Part shown: in pieces, positions 3,266 through 42,639 of the stretch
Numbering within the stretch: position 1 is the stretch's first letter
Layout: each line of letters opens with the position of its first letter
Assembly: GCA_027621355.1 (NCBI GenBank)
Contig: JAQCBZ010000004.1
Span: forward strand, 1-64,000
Origin: Bacteroidota bacterium
GTDB taxonomy: Bacteria > Bacteroidota > Rhodothermia > Balneolales > Balneolaceae
Reading direction: 5' to 3'
DNA length: 64,000 nt
The notes under the pieces: model-generated
Database searches by the model: none
What the model saw: only the letters and a program-made list of their open reading frames with translations
What the model was told of the DNA's origin: nothing
Translations under genes and position numbers: made by a program

Positions 3266-4576
3266 TTAAAACAATGTGCCTTGTAACCAGGTTCGTCGAT
3301 ATCGACCCTGAGCATCATACATCTTCGCCTGTCGATCCACATCAAATTGACGATTTCTTGGGTCATGACCTACGGTTGAGTTGTAGGCCCAGTTACCCCA
3401 ATTGCTGGCCACATCATAATCGATTAGCATGGTTTCGAAGTATGAGGCTCCCATACGCCAATCCACACCTAAATTTTGAGATAAATAGGATGCTACATTT
3501 TGTCGCCCACGATTACTCATAAAGCCTGTAGCATTTAGTTCGCGCATATTTGCGTCCACAAAATCAGCGCCCGTTTGACCGTCTGCCCAGCGCTGGAATC
3601 TATCTTTGTTTGGCTCTTGCCGGACCGCCTTGCCCTGTATACCACCCGCATGAAATAGTGACGCACCATGTTTCCAGGCTGAAAATTGGAAAAAATCACG
3701 CCAGAGTAATTCAAAAATCAGCCAATAGGTCGACTCATTACTCACCCGGTCGGCTTCATAGCGTTTCACTTCGGACCAAATGCGTCTTGGACTTACACAA
3801 CCATTGGCCAGCCATGGCGAAAATTTTGAGGAATAATTTGCACCAAGAAGCCCATTACGGGTTTGCTTATATACCTTTAGATGATCGCCCTGCCAAAAAT
3901 ATTCGTCCAATCGAGCACGTCCAGCGGTTTCACCCCCTTTGAACGGAAGCACAGATCTTGTATCGGGCGTCCAATCACCGGCATGTTGAGAAAGTTGGGA
4001 GCCTTCGAGCACATCTTTCCAAGGTGTGCTCGAACTGTACGTAGACCACAAAATTTTTGATGGAGAAGACACCGGTTCGCGAACATCAACCTCTTTCTCA
4101 ACCTTCTTTCGAAAAGGTGTAAATACCTTGGGAAGGTCCTCAAGCTCAAAGGGCAAATCATCTGTATGGAGTAGTGTATGCCCATCCACCCATTCAAACG
4201 CACAATTCGAGGAAATACGCGACTTGATCCTCGTTTCAGTGTCAGCCTCCTCCGTCCCAGGGTAGGTCATCGCCACAAGATTGTGAATTCCAAACTCATC
4301 CACTGCCTCCGCAAGCACCGACTCTGGAAGACCTTCTCGCACAATCAAGGACCCACCATGTTTCTCGATGGAAGTAGCTAAATCCTCGATGGATTCCTTC
4401 CAAAATCTAGCTCGAAACCGACCCATTTTAGGGAGTCCTAAGCGGGTATTTTCAAACCACGAGGGGTCCAAAATGACTATCGGGACAATAGGCTGATTCA
4501 TCTCGATGGCTTTCATCAAAGCTGGATGATCATCTAGCCGAAAGTCCTGTCGAAACCATAACAGTGTTTGATTCAT
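3266..4576 (-). CDS. Cryptochrome/photolyase family protein (DASH-type)
   Basis: [21 protein letters not shown]-terminal FAD-binding motifs ([40 protein letters not shown]). Confidence 0.92.
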
Positions 4577-30610: not shown

Positions 30611-30684
30611 GGGCCCATAGCTCAGTTGGTTAGAGCAGTCGACTCATAATCGATTGGTCGGGGGTTCAAGTCCCTCTGGGCCCA
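30611..30684 (+). tRNA. tRNA-Ile2 (CAU anticodon, lysidine type)
   Basis: Cloverleaf GGGCCCA/TGGGCCC acceptor; anticodon loop CTCATAA; AGTCGACTCATAATCGATTGGTCG resembles E. coli tRNA-Ile2. No encoded CCA. Confidence 0.9.
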
Positions 30685-30689
30685 CTTTT
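30673..30689 (+). repeat. attL-like direct repeat (tRNA-Ile2 3' end)
   Basis: CCTCTGGGCCCACTTTT, identical to 36398-36414. Confidence 0.7.
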
Positions 30690-30864
30690 ATCACAAACAT
30701 TATTGCTGCTTACTTTATAATACTAAAGCGGTCAGCTAACACGCTACGTGATTTGAAACACACTATCATCGTGGGTTAAGAGTGTGTAAAATTTGCTTAT
30801 TTATGGTTGAATTTCTGTTGAACTATTGTAGTTTCAACAGAACTATTAATCGCAACAAACAATT

Positions 30865-31581
30865 ATGAAAATGAAAAAAACAATCATTGCGCTTCTCCTC
30901 GCGTTATGTGTGACATCGGCAAGCTATGCTCAAAGCCAAATGTTTATCAGTTATGATTTTCGGGCAAATCCAGGATCTGAAGATGCCATCGCAAAATTAT
31001 TAACAGACTACCATGACCAGGTGGGATCTTACAAATCAGGTGGAATGAATGTCCTTAGAATGGATATGAAAGGTGAAATGGAAACCACTCATAGAGTCGT
31101 TATTCTTGGTGAAATAGATAATTTTGGGCCTGAGAATCCGACCCCAGAGGCCAGGTTGCAGTCTGAATTACTCGGAAAAAAGTTGGAAGACCACATTGAA
31201 AAAGAAACATCTTCTGTTGCAGGTTATATTTTATACGGCAGAGGCGATGGTGTCGAGGGTGATTCATACGGCGCTGGATGGTTAATGAATGTGACTGATC
31301 CAGCCACATTTGCGCCATCTTTTTTGAAGTTTGCCAACTCTGATGAGATTAATGCAATCTTAGGTGATCGAACATTAATGTTCGGAAGCTTTGCAGCTGG
31401 TGGAACATCCATTCCCGCAACACATTGGGTATATGCTTACTTTGCGAATATTGTAGACTACATGGCAACAATGGAGCAAATTTATGCCTCAGATGCATTT
31501 CAGCTGCATCAAGAAGAGGTTGCTGGCATTTACACACTGACACGCGAGTTCACCGAAGAACAAATTCTTAGCTTTGAGTAA
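30865..31581 (+). CDS. Secreted protein of unknown function; possible tandem dimeric alpha/beta-barrel-like repeats
   Basis: 238 aa with signal peptide (ALLLALCVTSASYAQ); two loosely similar halves. Confidence 0.65.
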   Translation: MKMKKTIIALLLALCVTSASYAQSQMFISYDFRANPGSEDAIAKLLTDYHDQVGSYKSGGMNVLRMDMKGEMETTHRVVILGEIDNFGPENPTPEARLQSELLGKKLEDHIEKETSSVAGYILYGRGDGVEGDSYGAGWLMNVTDPATFAPSFLKFANSDEINAILGDRTLMFGSFAAGGTSIPATHWVYAYFANIVDYMATMEQIYASDAFQLHQEEVAGIYTLTREFTEEQILSFE

Positions 31582-31846
31582 AGGCATATATTCATTCGAG
31601 CCAAATTCCTGGCTTTCAATAACATTGAAAACATTGGGTTATGCAACTAATTAATTGCCTGCATAATCCAATGCTTCGATGTGCTAAAGCTCAAATTGAA
31701 CAAAGTTGTGCAGAGTTTTTTATTATTTAGTGAGCTGCCGGCAAATCAGTGGGTGTCTATCAGTTTGGCTTTACATCTGATATAAGAGATTATGCACTAC
31801 TTTTTTTGGTGTATATGCAGATGCTAGATTATGATGGATACTTCAA

Positions 31847-32029
31847 TTAAATACTTTCTCTCAAAATCAGAGTATTACTAATCATATTCCTTGGATTTTC
31901 TTTTGTATCGAGTTCTAGTATAAATGTTACTTCCTCAGAATCTTCGTTCTCAATAACTATCAATTCGTCATTTGATGGCATACAACCAATCATCGTAATT
32001 GTAAGTATTGTAAGCAGTACGTTTTTCAT
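31847..32029 (-). CDS. Small putative lipoprotein (60 aa)
   Basis: MKNVLLTILTITMIGCMPSNDELIVIEN; lipobox-like ITMIGC. Confidence 0.45.
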   Translation of the reverse strand: MKNVLLTILTITMIGCMPSNDELIVIENEDSEEVTFILELDTKENPRNMISNTLILRESI

Positions 32030-32194
32030 AACAATGGATCAATATGGAATTTGTGTAAATATAGACTGATAGCTTATTTAGCCTAATTAAATTATAATCA
32101 ACTGATTCTTAATTAGGAATTTAAATAGAGCGTTTTAAATTTCATTAGGTGATTTTATTTCTAAATTTTTTAATACCAAATAAGAATACTTGAC

Positions 32195-32599
32195 ATGAAA
32201 AAATTAACTATATCCTTCTTTTTGGGATTTGTATGCCTGGCAGTTCTTGGTTCCGTGTTTGCCAATTTTGTTTACTTACCAAAGTTTGCCGAATGGCACC
32301 AACTGCACCCAGAAGTAGTTCGAGCTACCCTTGACCCTTTATCAGGAGCTCTTCAAGCCATTATTCAACTTGTTGGATTAGTGCTTTTGGTCAATATGAT
32401 TAAAATGACAAAGTGGATTAATGGATTTTTATTTGGTGCGATATACTCAGCAGGGATTTGGCTAATAGTGGATCTAAATTTGTTATCGCTAACTACTTTG
32501 ATTGATTATAATTATGTGGCACTGGATGCCTTGATTTCTGCGTTTCTAGGTGGAGTTGCGGGAGCAACAGTTACATGGTCCCAAAATAGATTTGCTTAG
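32195..32599 (+). CDS. Small integral membrane protein (134 aa)
   Basis: About four hydrophobic segments, N-terminal MKKLTISFFLGF. Confidence 0.6.
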   Translation: MKKLTISFFLGFVCLAVLGSVFANFVYLPKFAEWHQLHPEVVRATLDPLSGALQAIIQLVGLVLLVNMIKMTKWINGFLFGAIYSAGIWLIVDLNLLSLTTLIDYNYVALDALISAFLGGVAGATVTWSQNRFA

Positions 32600-32675
32600 C
32601 ATCAAGTAAAAAAGGACAAATTCATACAAATCGGTTGTATAAAGTATGCTGATTTAGCAACTAGCTAATAATCTC

Positions 32676-33629
32676 ATGAAACACATTGTAATACTCATTC
32701 TGTTGACTTTCTTGAATTACTCAACAGCTCAGAAGCCTTTACCGAAAATTATGACTAAAGTCTCTTCCTTAGAAATCACCACTTTGTCTACTATGCTTGC
32801 CAACCAAGGGATAGGTGAGTGGGGGTACTCTGCATTAATCGAGGTAGACGGTACAAAAATTTTATTTGATACTGGAAACAGACCAGAAACAGTTTTGCAA
32901 AATGCAGAGGATTTAGGAATCGATTTGTCAGACGTTGAACACGTATTTCTCAGCCATCATCACGGCGATCATACGGGGGGACTCATTACTCTAAGAGAGC
33001 ATTTAAAAAAAGTGAATCCAAAGGCCTTATCAAAGGTTCACGTAGGAAATGGCATGTTCAGCCAAAGAGTTGGGTACAAAAATCAGATGTTGTCAATGAG
33101 AAAGGAATTAGAAGCTGACGGTGTAGAGTTTATAGAATACACGGATCAGCAAGAAATATTCCCTGGTGTATGGATAACGGGGCCAGTGGAGCGCATTCAT
33201 GATGAGCGAAATTGGAGCGGATCGGGTAAAATTATAACTGAAAGTGGAGTTGTCGAAGATAATATACCCGAAGATCAATCATTGGTAATTGCCACGGCCG
33301 ATGGATTCGTATTAATCTCAGGATGTGGACATGCTGGCATCGTTAACACTATAGAGCAAATTAGATCCGATATTTATGAGGACAAAGTTCTTGCAGCCAT
33401 CGGAGGGTTTCATCTTTTTCAAGCATCTGAAGAGCACTTGGAATGGACAGCAAATAAATTGATGGAATTTGGGGTTGCAAATCTTAACGGTGCACACTGT
33501 ACAGGTATAGATGCTTTATATGCCCTTCGAGAATTAATGGAGTTAGATCGGAGTCAAGCTGTTGTAGGTTCTGTTGGCGACCATTTTGATCTACAAAATG
33601 GGATAAGTGCTGGTCTAATTGCTAAATGA
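32676..33629 (+). CDS. Secreted MBL-fold metallo-hydrolase
   Basis: ILFDTGNRPETVLQNAEDLGIDLSDVEHVFLSHHHGDHTGGL (HHHGDH), ISGCGHAGIVNTIEQ; signal peptide. Confidence 0.9.
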   Translation: MKHIVILILLTFLNYSTAQKPLPKIMTKVSSLEITTLSTMLANQGIGEWGYSALIEVDGTKILFDTGNRPETVLQNAEDLGIDLSDVEHVFLSHHHGDHTGGLITLREHLKKVNPKALSKVHVGNGMFSQRVGYKNQMLSMRKELEADGVEFIEYTDQQEIFPGVWITGPVERIHDERNWSGSGKIITESGVVEDNIPEDQSLVIATADGFVLISGCGHAGIVNTIEQIRSDIYEDKVLAAIGGFHLFQASEEHLEWTANKLMEFGVANLNGAHCTGIDALYALRELMELDRSQAVVGSVGDHFDLQNGISAGLIAK

Positions 33630-33682
33630 ATTAAACTTGCCGGGTATATAAAACAGGCAACTTCAGCAAGCATCACGAAATC

Positions 33683-34129
33683 TTATTTCATCAATATCAT
33701 TTGTCTGCTCTGTCTGTATCCATTGCTCTCTAATGTGTAGACATATATCCCACTTGATAGGGTACTTCCTTCAAATTGAACGGTATGGGCTCCTGCTCTT
33801 TTAACACCATTCACTAGAGTGGTGATGAATCGCCCTGTAATGTCATAGATATTGATTGTCACCATCCCTGATTTTAGAAGTGAGTAACTGATTATTGTTG
33901 TAGGATTGAATGGATTGGGAGAGTTCTGATTTAGACTGTAAGTCGTTGGTGGTGTTTCGCTTGACTTAGTACTAACTAAAATACTACTGTTAATTTGTAG
34001 TTTACCTATTGTTTGATTGATGGCAGAGAATGTTTCTGCTTTCGATTCGAATGTGGGATTGCTCTGCCCAACTACAGAGATCGTGGTTAGTAATAAAAGA
34101 ATGGTAAAAGAGAGTACCCGAAGAAACAT
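33683..34129 (-). CDS. Short secreted protein consisting mostly of a T9SS type A sorting domain
   Basis: 148 aa; NSPNPFNPTTIISYSLLKSGMVTINIYDITGRFITTLVNG...GIYVYTLESNGYRQSRQMILMK. Confidence 0.8.
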   Translation of the reverse strand: MFLRVLSFTILLLLTTISVVGQSNPTFESKAETFSAINQTIGKLQINSSILVSTKSSETPPTTYSLNQNSPNPFNPTTIISYSLLKSGMVTINIYDITGRFITTLVNGVKRAGAHTVQFEGSTLSSGIYVYTLESNGYRQSRQMILMK

Positions 34130-34137
34130 AAAGTATC

Positions 34138-36192
34138 CTATTTAATGAGGTACATGGTTTTGGTTTGGACACCACTTTGTGCCCCGGTAAGTCTATACAG
34201 ATACATGCCACTGGCTAAATCTGCAGCATGAAATCCAACGGAATGCTGCCCAGCACCCATAGGCCTATCAACCAATGTCACCACACGCTGCCCCAACAAA
34301 TTGTACACCTCCAAGGTCACATGTTGTGCTTGTGGCAAAACAAACCCAATGGTTGTTCGTGGATTGAATGGGTTGGGATAATTTTGTGCCAAACCATATT
34401 GTAGCGGTAACGCATCCTCTTGGGTTGAGACGCTCGTACCCGTGGTGAACGACTTGGCCTCGGTCCAGTCGGATTGGTTCACCCCTAGAATTGAGCGCAT
34501 TCGCCAATAATAGGTGGTGTTTGCCTCCAGTGCAGAATCCAGAGTGGCGGTGGTCACTTCATCTTGGTACACACTCGTTGCGCCCTCCACATCCATGGTG
34601 TAAACAGGAGATGCAAAATCCTGGGTGAGTGATACTTGAATTTGGTAAGAACTAAAGTCGGTACTGGCGACCCACTGAAAATCAGGTTTGCGCCCTATGG
34701 CTTCAGCCCCATCTGCTGGTAGCGAGGTGACAAACCGTTTGGGGTAATGAAACAACTCGGTGGAATGTTCCGTTGGAAGGATGTACGTCCACTTTAGAGG
34801 ATCGACAGTGGTATACCAATCATAGAAGGCCTGGCTGAATTCTAATTGCGTCATACCATAGGCGTCCTCAAAGGCTTGTTCAAAGGGCTTTGTCCACGCC
34901 CGGTCATCATATTTATCAATGTATACTTGCTGATTGCTTGTCAGATAAGCTAGATAGTATCCAGCAATCATACCTCCATACATTAAGTTACCGTTGACAA
35001 TCAAAGAGTCTCTTTTCCCAGGGCTCAAAGGTCCATCATATTCCCCACTAATTATACCATAGAATGCGCGGCGTTCAGTATCAACACCCCACGAGGTGGT
35101 TTCATAATAATTACCTAATGAGTCTAATGCACCAAATGTGATTCCATCCACATACTTTGATTGAATGTCTATGGCATAATCCCTCAGAAAAGGGAATCTA
35201 AATCCGCCATCGGATGTCATGTGTCTGTACCACAATCCAAACTTCTCTCCACCACTCATCATCCGAGTCGCTTCAAATACATGGGTAAACTCATGAACAT
35301 CGCCTATAGAGGGTTCTCCATCAGCGAGGGGCTTCTTGCTCTCGAATAATTCTTGAGGTGACATCGTCGACCAGCCATGACCAATACCTAAATTGGGATA
35401 AGGGCCGTCTTCAAAAATGCTATTACCCCTCGCAATTCCCATATAGTGAGGTTGTCCAGTACACCCATGTCCCGCAGCCTCACAATTCTCATTGTTGATA
35501 TCTAATACTGGCCCCCAAAGATTTTCGTCAGGACCAAATATGTAAACGTGATAATTAAAATGTCCAATCAGATCACCATGAGCTTTATAAAGCTCCTTAT
35601 GAAGATTGACCATATTTGTATCAATGTCTGCCGTGTAATAAAACTTGGTTGAGTCCCAAACGGTTGGCTTCATCCATCCAACAAGATCCAGTAGTTGTTG
35701 ATCCTTATCGTTTGGAGTTCGTATATCGGTGGAAGTAAAATGGCTATAATCACTCCATGCGTATGCAGAATCATCAATTACAGCCCTAACCTTCCACCAA
35801 TAATCTTGACTATAGGTTGGCCCACAGATGTCATCGCTACCTGATGTCGCTGTTGTGTCCGTAAAACTGTAGATTTTTGGTAAATAGCCCAAATGACCTG
35901 TTGGCCATGTCCACTCAGGTCCTCCTCCACTATGGTTACCAGAATGAGGACTACAAGCTACTCCCAACATCCAAACTTCATATTCCTGTGCCCCTTCTAC
36001 ACTTGACCAAGTATACGTGACTTGGATTCTCTCATTGGGATCAACACCCGCATCTTGTACTTGTTTTTGACCATCTTTAGGAATTAGTGGTATTGGAATG
36101 GTAGCATCTTGGCCAATGCTATAATGAAGTGGAAAAATCGACAATAAGACAGCAAATGTGAATAAGACTAAGTGTTTTGGATAAAGGCTCAT
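34138..36192 (-). CDS. T9SS-secreted putative metallopeptidase with HExxH-like motif and C-terminal sorting domain
   Basis: 684 aa; signal peptide, GDVHEFTHVFEATRMM, Fn3-like region, QNYPNPFNPRTTIGFVLPQAQHVTLEVYNLLGQRVVTLVD...KTMYLIK. Confidence 0.75.
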   Translation of the reverse strand: MSLYPKHLVLFTFAVLLSIFPLHYSIGQDATIPIPLIPKDGQKQVQDAGVDPNERIQVTYTWSSVEGAQEYEVWMLGVACSPHSGNHSGGGPEWTWPTGHLGYLPKIYSFTDTTATSGSDDICGPTYSQDYWWKVRAVIDDSAYAWSDYSHFTSTDIRTPNDKDQQLLDLVGWMKPTVWDSTKFYYTADIDTNMVNLHKELYKAHGDLIGHFNYHVYIFGPDENLWGPVLDINNENCEAAGHGCTGQPHYMGIARGNSIFEDGPYPNLGIGHGWSTMSPQELFESKKPLADGEPSIGDVHEFTHVFEATRMMSGGEKFGLWYRHMTSDGGFRFPFLRDYAIDIQSKYVDGITFGALDSLGNYYETTSWGVDTERRAFYGIISGEYDGPLSPGKRDSLIVNGNLMYGGMIAGYYLAYLTSNQQVYIDKYDDRAWTKPFEQAFEDAYGMTQLEFSQAFYDWYTTVDPLKWTYILPTEHSTELFHYPKRFVTSLPADGAEAIGRKPDFQWVASTDFSSYQIQVSLTQDFASPVYTMDVEGATSVYQDEVTTATLDSALEANTTYYWRMRSILGVNQSDWTEAKSFTTGTSVSTQEDALPLQYGLAQNYPNPFNPRTTIGFVLPQAQHVTLEVYNLLGQRVVTLVDRPMGAGQHSVGFHAADLASGMYLYRLTGAQSGVQTKTMYLIK

Positions 36193-36397
36193 GAGTTCGT
36201 TTTTGTGGTTTGAGCCTGGGACGATGGACTCAACGTGAAGTTAGACATCAGTAAAGCCAAAGCCCACATCATTGTGGTAGAATTTGTGTCATGATGAAGA
36301 AGATTGTTAAAGTATCATATTTAATAAATGATTTTTTTGAGCTTAAAACGTAATATCTAGTGCATGTCAGTGCTAGTCAATCCCACCCCTCAAGTCA

Positions 36398-36414
36398 CCT
36401 CTGGGCCCACTTTT
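36398..36414 (+). repeat. attR-like direct repeat of the tRNA-Ile2 3' end
   Basis: CCTCTGGGCCCACTTTT, exact match to 30673-30689; extends to TCAAGTC with a 1-nt insertion (36390-36414). Confidence 0.7.
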
Positions 36415-37242
36415 TTACTGAATTGAATAGATCCGGACATAATCCACCATCATCTGTTGTGGAAATTTTGTCTCTTGTGTTGGGAAGCCAACATAGTTGC
36501 CCCCTACTGCCACATTAAGCAGTAAGAAAAAGGGTTGATCAAACACCCAGTCACCCGAAACATCGTCGGGCGTGACTCGTTGGTAGAGATAGTCATTCAC
36601 AAAAAAATCTATGCGCTCAGGATGCCACTCCACAGCATAGACAAAGAAATCTGCATCAAAGCGTGCGTTGGTGAGTGAGTAGGATTGAGTCACGGGATTG
36701 CTACCCGAATACCCAGGGCCATGCAAGGATCCATGAATCACTTGAGGCAGCTGTCCTCGCATTTCCATAATGTCAATCTCGCCAGATTGAGGCCATCCAA
36801 CCTCGTCGATATTTTGCCCTAACATCCAAAAGGCTGGCCATATCCCTGGGCCATACGGATTTTGTATTCGTGCTTCGATGCGTCCAAATCGTTTGGTGAT
36901 TTTACCCTGTGTCTTGAGCCGTGCAGAGGTAAAAGGCATGCCACCGAATGACTCTTGGTGTGCTTGGATCACCAGGTGGCCGCTTCCGTCTAGCGCAACA
37001 TTTTTAGATCTATCAGTGTAGTACTGCAACTCTTGATTTCCCCAGCCATCGGTGCCCGTACCAATCTCCATTGTCCAATATTGAAAGGATGGTTGAGAGC
37101 CCTCGGCCCCATCAAATTCATCAGACCAAACAAGTTCTAACGTTTGTTCTGGAAACAGTTGGGTCGTACTAGGGGTACATGCCTCAAATAATAGGACGAA
37201 ACTCAGACTTGTAAGGACTATTCCTGATAGACGAATATTCAT
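36415..37242 (-). CDS. GH16 family glycoside hydrolase (beta-glucanase/laminarinase-like lipoprotein)
   Basis: LVWSDEFDG, WPAFWMLGQNIDEVGWPQSGEIDIMEMRG, YAVEWHPERIDFFVNDYL; lipobox LLFEAC. Confidence 0.92.
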   Translation of the reverse strand: MNIRLSGIVLTSLSFVLLFEACTPSTTQLFPEQTLELVWSDEFDGAEGSQPSFQYWTMEIGTGTDGWGNQELQYYTDRSKNVALDGSGHLVIQAHQESFGGMPFTSARLKTQGKITKRFGRIEARIQNPYGPGIWPAFWMLGQNIDEVGWPQSGEIDIMEMRGQLPQVIHGSLHGPGYSGSNPVTQSYSLTNARFDADFFVYAVEWHPERIDFFVNDYLYQRVTPDDVSGDWVFDQPFFLLLNVAVGGNYVGFPTQETKFPQQMMVDYVRIYSIQ

Positions 37243-37254
37243 GTAGATCACCAC

Positions 37255-37562
37255 CTATCGATGAAAATAAACATTGGTCATATAGACCGTGGGTAGACTC
37301 CCAGAAATCACGAGTTGAGCCATGTTTGTTCGATTGGTTAGGCCTGTAAATTGGCTCAACGGGATATCTAAGGTGACCCACCAGATACACCAGCAAAATC
37401 GGCAAAATAGGTTGTCCAACTTGTTAGATCACCTGTGCTAAAGTCACCATTGGCGATAATATTGTCTTGCGCTGACGCGGTTGTACCCGCAAGTGTTATC
37501 GCGCTAAGAATGAGCAAAAAAGAGAGTTTAGGCTGTGAAATAGATTGTAGAGCTCTTTTCAT
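37255..37562 (-). pseudogene. Internally deleted and frameshifted remnant of a secreted carbohydrate-binding/glucanase-associated protein
   Basis: N-terminal frame MKRALQ...LAGTTASAQDNIIANGDFSTGDLTSWTTYFADFAGVSGGSP*; another frame continues WVTLDIPLSQFTGLTNRTNMAQLVISGSLPTVYMTNVYFHR* to 37255. Confidence 0.75.
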
Positions 37563-41652: not shown

Positions 41653-42639
41653 ATGGACTCTATTATTCAAAATATTCTTGTGCCAACGGACTTCTCTAAA
41701 AGTTCTGAGAAGGCGTATATCGTGGCAGCCAATCTAGCCAAGACCTACGGAGCGACGGTAGACTTTCTTCACATTATCCCAACGCTGAAGTATTTCCGAG
41801 AGAGCGTAAACAAAATGGGAATCCCTTTTGATATGGATGAGGAGTTTTATCCACATGCTCAAAGAGATGCGAAACATCGAATGGAACAAGCGGCACAGGA
41901 TTATTTGAAAGAAGAGCATCGAGGGGAGCTATACACAGCCATTGAACCCCGTACTGCAGGAGCGATAGCACAATTCGCAGATAAACACAGCCACGATCTT
42001 ATCGTTGTTGGCGAGCGAGGCGCAGGAGAGACCCACTGGTTTAGAGGGTCCACCACTGAAAGATTGATTCGCCAAGCCAAAGTCCCTGTGTTCGCTGTCG
42101 ATGATTCGTTTCAAATCGAGTCTATCAAGAAGATTCTCGTCCCGACGGATGGAAGCCATTTGTCTCTCCAGGCACTGAAAATGGCCTTACCCCTAGCCGT
42201 GACGTTCAAAGCGTCTATTGAGTTGTTTCATGTCCTAGAGCTCTATGGTGTGTCTTGGGATGATGTACCTCGACAGCCTGATCAAGATGAGGAGAGTCAT
42301 GCAAGAGTCGCCATACTTAATCAGATCACTACCTTGCTGGAAAAAAATGGCGCCTTTGATGGGGTAAGCTTCGCTAAAAAATCAGAGACAGAGCCCCTCT
42401 CCTTTGGATTTAGCATGGGCTCAGATACAGTCTCCGTGCCGTGTGATTTGAATGTGGCGCGGGGGGTTTCTGCTCACTACGAAATTGAACGCGAGGCGGT
42501 GGATGCTGCCGACATGGTCATCATGGCAACACATGGACACAGCGGACTTGCCCATTTGATCCTGGGATCCACCGCTGAGAAAGTGGCTCAATACGTTAAG
42601 AAGCCGGTTCTGACTGTTCGGCCCGAAGGACTTGAATAA
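41653..42639 (+). CDS. Universal stress protein with two tandem Usp domains
   Basis: NILVPTDFSKSSEKAY ... LIVVGERGAGETHWFRGSTTERLIRQAKVPVFAVDD; second domain KILVPTDGS...MATHGHSGLAHLILGSTAEKVAQYVKKPVLTVRP. Confidence 0.93.
   Translation: MDSIIQNILVPTDFSKSSEKAYIVAANLAKTYGATVDFLHIIPTLKYFRESVNKMGIPFDMDEEFYPHAQRDAKHRMEQAAQDYLKEEHRGELYTAIEPRTAGAIAQFADKHSHDLIVVGERGAGETHWFRGSTTERLIRQAKVPVFAVDDSFQIESIKKILVPTDGSHLSLQALKMALPLAVTFKASIELFHVLELYGVSWDDVPRQPDQDEESHARVAILNQITTLLEKNGAFDGVSFAKKSETEPLSFGFSMGSDTVSVPCDLNVARGVSAHYEIEREAVDAADMVIMATHGHSGLAHLILGSTAEKVAQYVKKPVLTVRPEGLE

Follow-up and report, generated by a model that had tools for sequence, protein, structure and literature searches.

A small AT-rich block between tRNA-Ile2 and a displaced copy of its 3' end in a Balneolaceae genome, a probable decayed genomic island

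Islands integrated into tRNA genes (tDNA) have been described within a size limit of 2–200 kb and with an integrase gene required inside (Islander, PMC4383910), and tRNA-anchored flexible islands, the tycheposons, are known from streamlined aquatic bacteria (PMC10872708). In this study, we analysed a stretch of 64,000 nucleotides (referred to here as the window) from the draft genome of a Bacteroidota bacterium of the family Balneolaceae (G000), for which an initial annotation had put forward a 5.7-kb island between tRNA-Ile2 and a duplicated tRNA 3' end. Based on comparison with one congener and with integrase-carrying genomes of the same order, this block is probably a decayed tRNA-Ile2 genomic island that was integrated site-specifically and whose attR scar persists in a hypervariable spot. 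Coordinates of all features are given in Table 1.

The tRNA gene at the left end was labelled tRNA-Met(cat) by ARAGORN; we take it to be tRNA-Ile2, as its anticodon stem has a sequence like that of E. coli tRNA-Ile2. The congener and two further genera of the family have the gene at 100% identity. The reported recurrence of its 3' end plus flank was found as described, with CCTCTGGGCCCACTTTT (17 bp) exact at both 30673–30689 and 36398–36414, and so was the upstream extension, the alignment of TCAAGTC-CCTCTGGGCCCACTTTT with TCAAGTCACCTCTGGGCCCACTTTT matching at 24 of 25 positions with one inserted base. The displaced fragment has the same orientation as tRNA-Ile2, lies on its 3' side and is clear of conserved protein domains, between the stop of the GH16 gene (36415) and a T9SS gene. 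Apart from the tRNA itself and a pair of ordinary tRNAs, BLASTN with the 79-nt tRNA region against the 1.51-Mb draft (59 contigs) returned the fragment alone (E = 3.5e-4), so that this is the single such fragment in the assembly. A chance match, for which nothing but the shortness of the repeat speaks, is hardly credible: counting both strands, about 6e-6 exact copies of the 17-mer would be expected in the window and 1.4e-4 in the genome, even before the further 7-nt extension, and every other match to the 17-mer within the window has at least three mismatches. We therefore discarded it as the origin of the repeat. With the other tRNAs of G000 as a control, a comparable 3' fragment was seen at tRNA-Leu(GAG) only; this control gave no sign of 3' tRNA fragments of such length being common at random places.

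Table 1. Features of the tRNA-Ile2 locus and its surroundings (positions within the window)
Feature	Position	Strand	Remarks
tRNA-Ile2(CAU)	30611–30685	+	Intact putative integration target, attL side; ARAGORN, Rfam RF00005 (74 bits)
Direct repeat, reference copy (T-arm/3' end + TTTT)	30666–30689	+	
Segment common to G001 beside the same tRNA	30781–31776	+	Mostly tandem-duplicated in G001
238-aa secreted orphan	30865–31581	+	tRNA-proximal cargo
Truncated 5' end of lipoprotein gene	31847–32029	-	144 bp at 96% to full-length G001 copy
134-aa membrane protein	32195–32599	+	Function unassigned
Secreted metallo-beta-lactamase-fold (MBL) hydrolase	32676–33629	+	PF00753, E = 2.3e-12
148-aa protein, just signal peptide and T9SS sorting tail	33683–34129	-	PF18962
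684-aa secreted protein with T9SS tail	34138–36192	-	TIGR04183
Displaced tRNA 3' end (putative attR scar)	36390–36414	+	24/25, one inserted base
GH16 beta-glucanase	36415–37254	-	PF00722; abuts the scar, outside the repeat
64-aa short ORF	37368–37562	-	No Pfam match; possible truncated secreted-protein fragment

The gene content agrees with the secreted, membrane and T9SS genes announced for the block, namely the orphan, the lipoprotein fragment, the membrane protein, the MBL hydrolase and two proteins with T9SS tails. The 148-aa protein adjoins the full-length T9SS-tail protein and is possibly an internally deleted derivative. No integrase gene was found by profile search of the block's ORFs, and tblastn with the integrases of six relatives revealed no remnant, in line with the earlier reading that no integrase is recognisable inside; the block is therefore best read as a relic rather than an active island. 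Searches for relatives of the block among phages, plasmids and viruses were likewise empty. Regarding composition, 30690–36397 has a GC content of 40.2%, the window as a whole 46.7%; none of 583 sliding windows of equal size is as low, which bears out the suspected AT-richness of the enclosed DNA, and the tetranucleotide distance of 30690–36397 is greater than that of all 117 windows compared. By segment, the DNA preceding the tRNA has 47.9% GC, the interior 39.4% and 40.4%, the GH16 segment 44.5% and the block that follows 45.8%.

That a tyrosine recombinase acted at tRNA-Ile2, as had been proposed, is well supported by relatives carrying integrases at the same tRNA. Tyrosine integrases are located just 3' of tRNA-Ile2 in G014, G021, G022, G012, G004 and G027. 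When the integrase of G014 was compared with 126 genomes of the order and tRNAs were searched for at the 30 loci returned, 15 of these loci were situated directly after tRNA-Ile2, the integrases beginning about 150–480 bp downstream. Among the loci with at least 58% identity to the G014 integrase, 11 of 12 were at tRNA-Ile2, the exception being at tRNA-Asn; at 1e-40, this clade has no match in G000 or in the congener. As a side observation, integrase clades of the order specialise by tRNA, the more distant ones being found mostly at tRNA-Arg(TCG/ACG). Displaced 3' tRNA copies starting from the anticodon loop were identified 30.4 kb (G014), 31.3 kb (G021) and 48.7 kb (G027) away, and close to either end these three elements possess direct repeats in pairs with a 12-bp period, e.g., TTGGTACAGCGGTTGGTACA, which we infer to be arm sites of the integrase. 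G021 additionally harbors a second, shorter T-arm-type fragment just past attR, resembling that of the window. Integrases and displaced copies in the relatives thus establish tRNA-Ile2 as an attachment site, with short old fragments occurring elsewhere as well; it is a family-wide insertion hotspot at which integration recurs across the order.

Comparison was possible with one congener, G001 (UBA1860); the genomes of the two species are at draft stage, the contigs of G001 breaking at the tRNA-Ile2 locus. On contig C10, G001 is collinear with positions 3708–31776 of the window (88% identity), so that the orphan already follows tRNA-Ile2 in G001, where a second tandem orphan copy comes next and then the end of the contig. 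Contig C66 opens with a 145-aa gene and a 151-aa lipoprotein gene, followed by prephenate dehydratase and the TonB receptor, collinear with the window from 37793 onward; judged from this collinearity, C10 and C66 are probably neighbours. The first 144 bp of the 151-aa lipoprotein gene appear inverted at 31886–32029 of the window, the full-length G001 gene being located beside prephenate dehydratase in the opposite orientation to the window fragment. The 684-aa T9SS gene was detected in G001 on contigs C62/C36 (91–94% at the nucleotide level) among orthologues of the tRNA-Pro neighbourhood, which is contig C53 in G000. For GH16, no close copy exists in G001 (best match 45%), and DNA absent from G001 continues beyond the repeat through this gene. 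DNA specific to G000 is therefore not confined to the part between the repeat copies, and the block itself is mosaic. An empty site, i.e., tRNA-Ile2 directly joined to TTTTTTACTGAATTG and the GH16 3' end, which would count as supporting evidence but is no filter of Islander, was not found in the one congener compared, which has the first gene at tRNA-Ile2 and whose draft contig ends inside the region. A single clean insertion with an empty congener site is unsupported, since G001 shares the first gene and other contents are rearranged. A suspected tRNA-Val intron in G001 proved to be an N-gap of the assembly. Outside the block, a universal stress protein gene (41653–42639) is missing from the syntenic place in G001, and in several relatives a UspA gene adjoins DUF368, PCMT and tRNA-Ile2; these differences in placement show that the tRNA-Ile2 neighbourhood has been rearranged in the genus.

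The 238-aa orphan revealed no match in Pfam, NCBIfam or PHROG. Its AF2 model (pLDDT 79) found 2pgc from a marine metagenome as the best Foldseek hit (E = 5e-11), and a tandem alpha/beta-barrel similar to antibiotic biosynthesis monooxygenases is predicted, which ruled out the orphan as a recombinase; it is cargo. Within the order, 3 of 129 genomes carry the gene, and among 396 genomes sampled from the phylum it was present in G000 alone. All four copies in G000 lie 3' of a tRNA on the same strand, at distances of 0.2 kb (Ile2), 0.7 kb (Phe), 0.85 kb (Leu-GAG) and 4.1 kb (Pro). A rough hand estimate of the probability that three of four random genes lie no more than 0.9 kb 3' of any of 28 tRNAs comes to about 2e-6, a post hoc figure for copies that are paralogues. 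This pattern could reflect cassettes without an integrase moved in trans, or several tRNA sites used by elements that have since decayed.

An explanation of the block, or of parts of it, as such a satellite-like cassette with orphan-carrying kin at several tRNAs draws on this placement of the orphan and also on the tRNA-Leu(GAG) locus (contig C19, 22609–22699 and 26238–26312). There, a second tRNA copy (positions 17–91, 97%), cut by the edge of the contig, was identified 3.6 kb upstream, and both copies are followed after 51–56 bp by direct repeats of 11-bp period (TAGGGAAACA twice; TTGTAAAACA twice) that look like integrase arm sites. A GH81 glucanase with a T9SS tail and two small ORFs without assignment are situated between the copies, and no integrase was seen. 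The 684-aa T9SS gene, which is associated with one tRNA in G000 and with another in G001, fits the same explanation, as does a partial tyrosine integrase on contig C52 of G000, a genome that also encodes two full-length Xer/integrase-type genes. However, the partial integrase is only 24–28% identical to the clade at the Ile2 site, and C52, a contig of 10.7 kb that also encodes repetitive secreted proteins and a 621-aa member of PHROG 34709, is possibly a mobile element or mis-binned. Moreover, tRNA repeats were seen only at Leu and Ile2 among the four orphan loci, no 3' tRNA repeat having turned up in the stretches read at Phe and Pro; arms are missing from the Ile2 block, whose repeat is decayed; and, where this is readable (Ile2, Phe), the two species have orthologues of the orphan fixed at one and the same tRNA. 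We therefore regard a cassette origin of the block as unlikely, and slightly more doubtful still is the wider notion that the genus has orphan-marked, integrase-less cassettes at the 3' flanks of Ile2, Leu-GAG, Phe and Pro that swap their contents with a recombinase supplied in trans. About as improbable as this notion is plain gene flux by homologous recombination at a variable spot, in which case the tRNA fragment would be a duplication of separate origin or would mark an older element, now gone, that lay elsewhere in the spot. Patchy identity to G001 at the tRNA-Pro locus (86–98%) and lineage-specific DNA on either side of the fragment would agree with such flux, but orientation, position and uniqueness of the fragment fit the expectation for attR, and the relatives carry true integrative elements at tRNA-Ile2.

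The decayed island accounts for the attR-like position and orientation of the 24/25 copy, unique in the genome, and for the turnover relative to G001, i.e., the tandem duplication, the truncated inverted gene fragment and the relocated T9SS gene. Against it stand the length of the repeat, 24 nt from the T-loop onward in the window versus 47–54 nt from the anticodon loop onward in relatives, the absence of their arm-type direct repeats from the tRNA-Ile2 block, the lack of an empty site in one draft congener, and the congener-absent DNA that passes the repeat through GH16. Due to the shorter repeat and the missing arms, the block may go back to an integrase of another clade. Among the three options offered by the initial annotation, i.e., a relic, an element mobilised in trans or a cargo-only satellite, the relic, here without an integrase or remnant of one, was the best; the notion of 30685–36397 as one discrete element found no support, as its first gene is shared at the congener's tRNA-Ile2, other contents are rearranged or located at another tRNA there, and congener-absent DNA extends beyond the repeat. 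We infer the following order of events, with integrase action as the source of the window's repeat. A tyrosine integrase would have recombined the attP of an element with the T-arm/3' end of tRNA-Ile2, the tRNA being restored by the element's copy and the original 3' end being displaced downstream to what is now 36390–36414. Integrase and core att structure would later have been lost, and the spot would then have gained, lost and rearranged AT-rich cargo for secreted and membrane proteins. Given such continued gain, loss and rearrangement, the present 5.7 kb would be a mosaic and not one element.

Altogether, a small, tRNA-anchored hypervariable spot persists in a streamlined genome of 1.5 Mb, where an attR scar alone would be left of the integrase that opened it. 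One orphan family at four tRNAs also provides a testable handle on integrase-less cassette exchange in small genomes.

With the islands of Islander (PMC4383910), the block shares an intact tDNA and a displaced 3' fragment that lies 3' of it and points the same way, a size of 5.7 kb, a sublocation in the T-stem region, an atypical composition and a fragment off conserved domains. It differs in that no integrase is present inside, in the damage to the fragment by one insertion, and in its genes, some of which are common to the congener and others reshuffled relative to it. The elements of G014, G021 and G027 use the same tRNA and likewise have its 3' end repeated downstream; unlike the block, they are 30–49 kb long, encode an integrase about 150–480 bp after the tRNA, and display a repeat of 47–54 nt from the anticodon loop as well as arm-like sites of 12-bp period. 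Tycheposons and other tRNA-anchored flexible islands of streamlined aquatic bacteria (PMC10872708) resemble it in the small genome and in a cargo island that starts at a tRNA, whereas the block has no recombinase on board, belongs to a phylogenetically unrelated host and was compared with one congener. Thus, the block is a further example of a well-known kind, that of Islander islands (PMC4383910) and tRNA-anchored flexible islands (PMC10872708).
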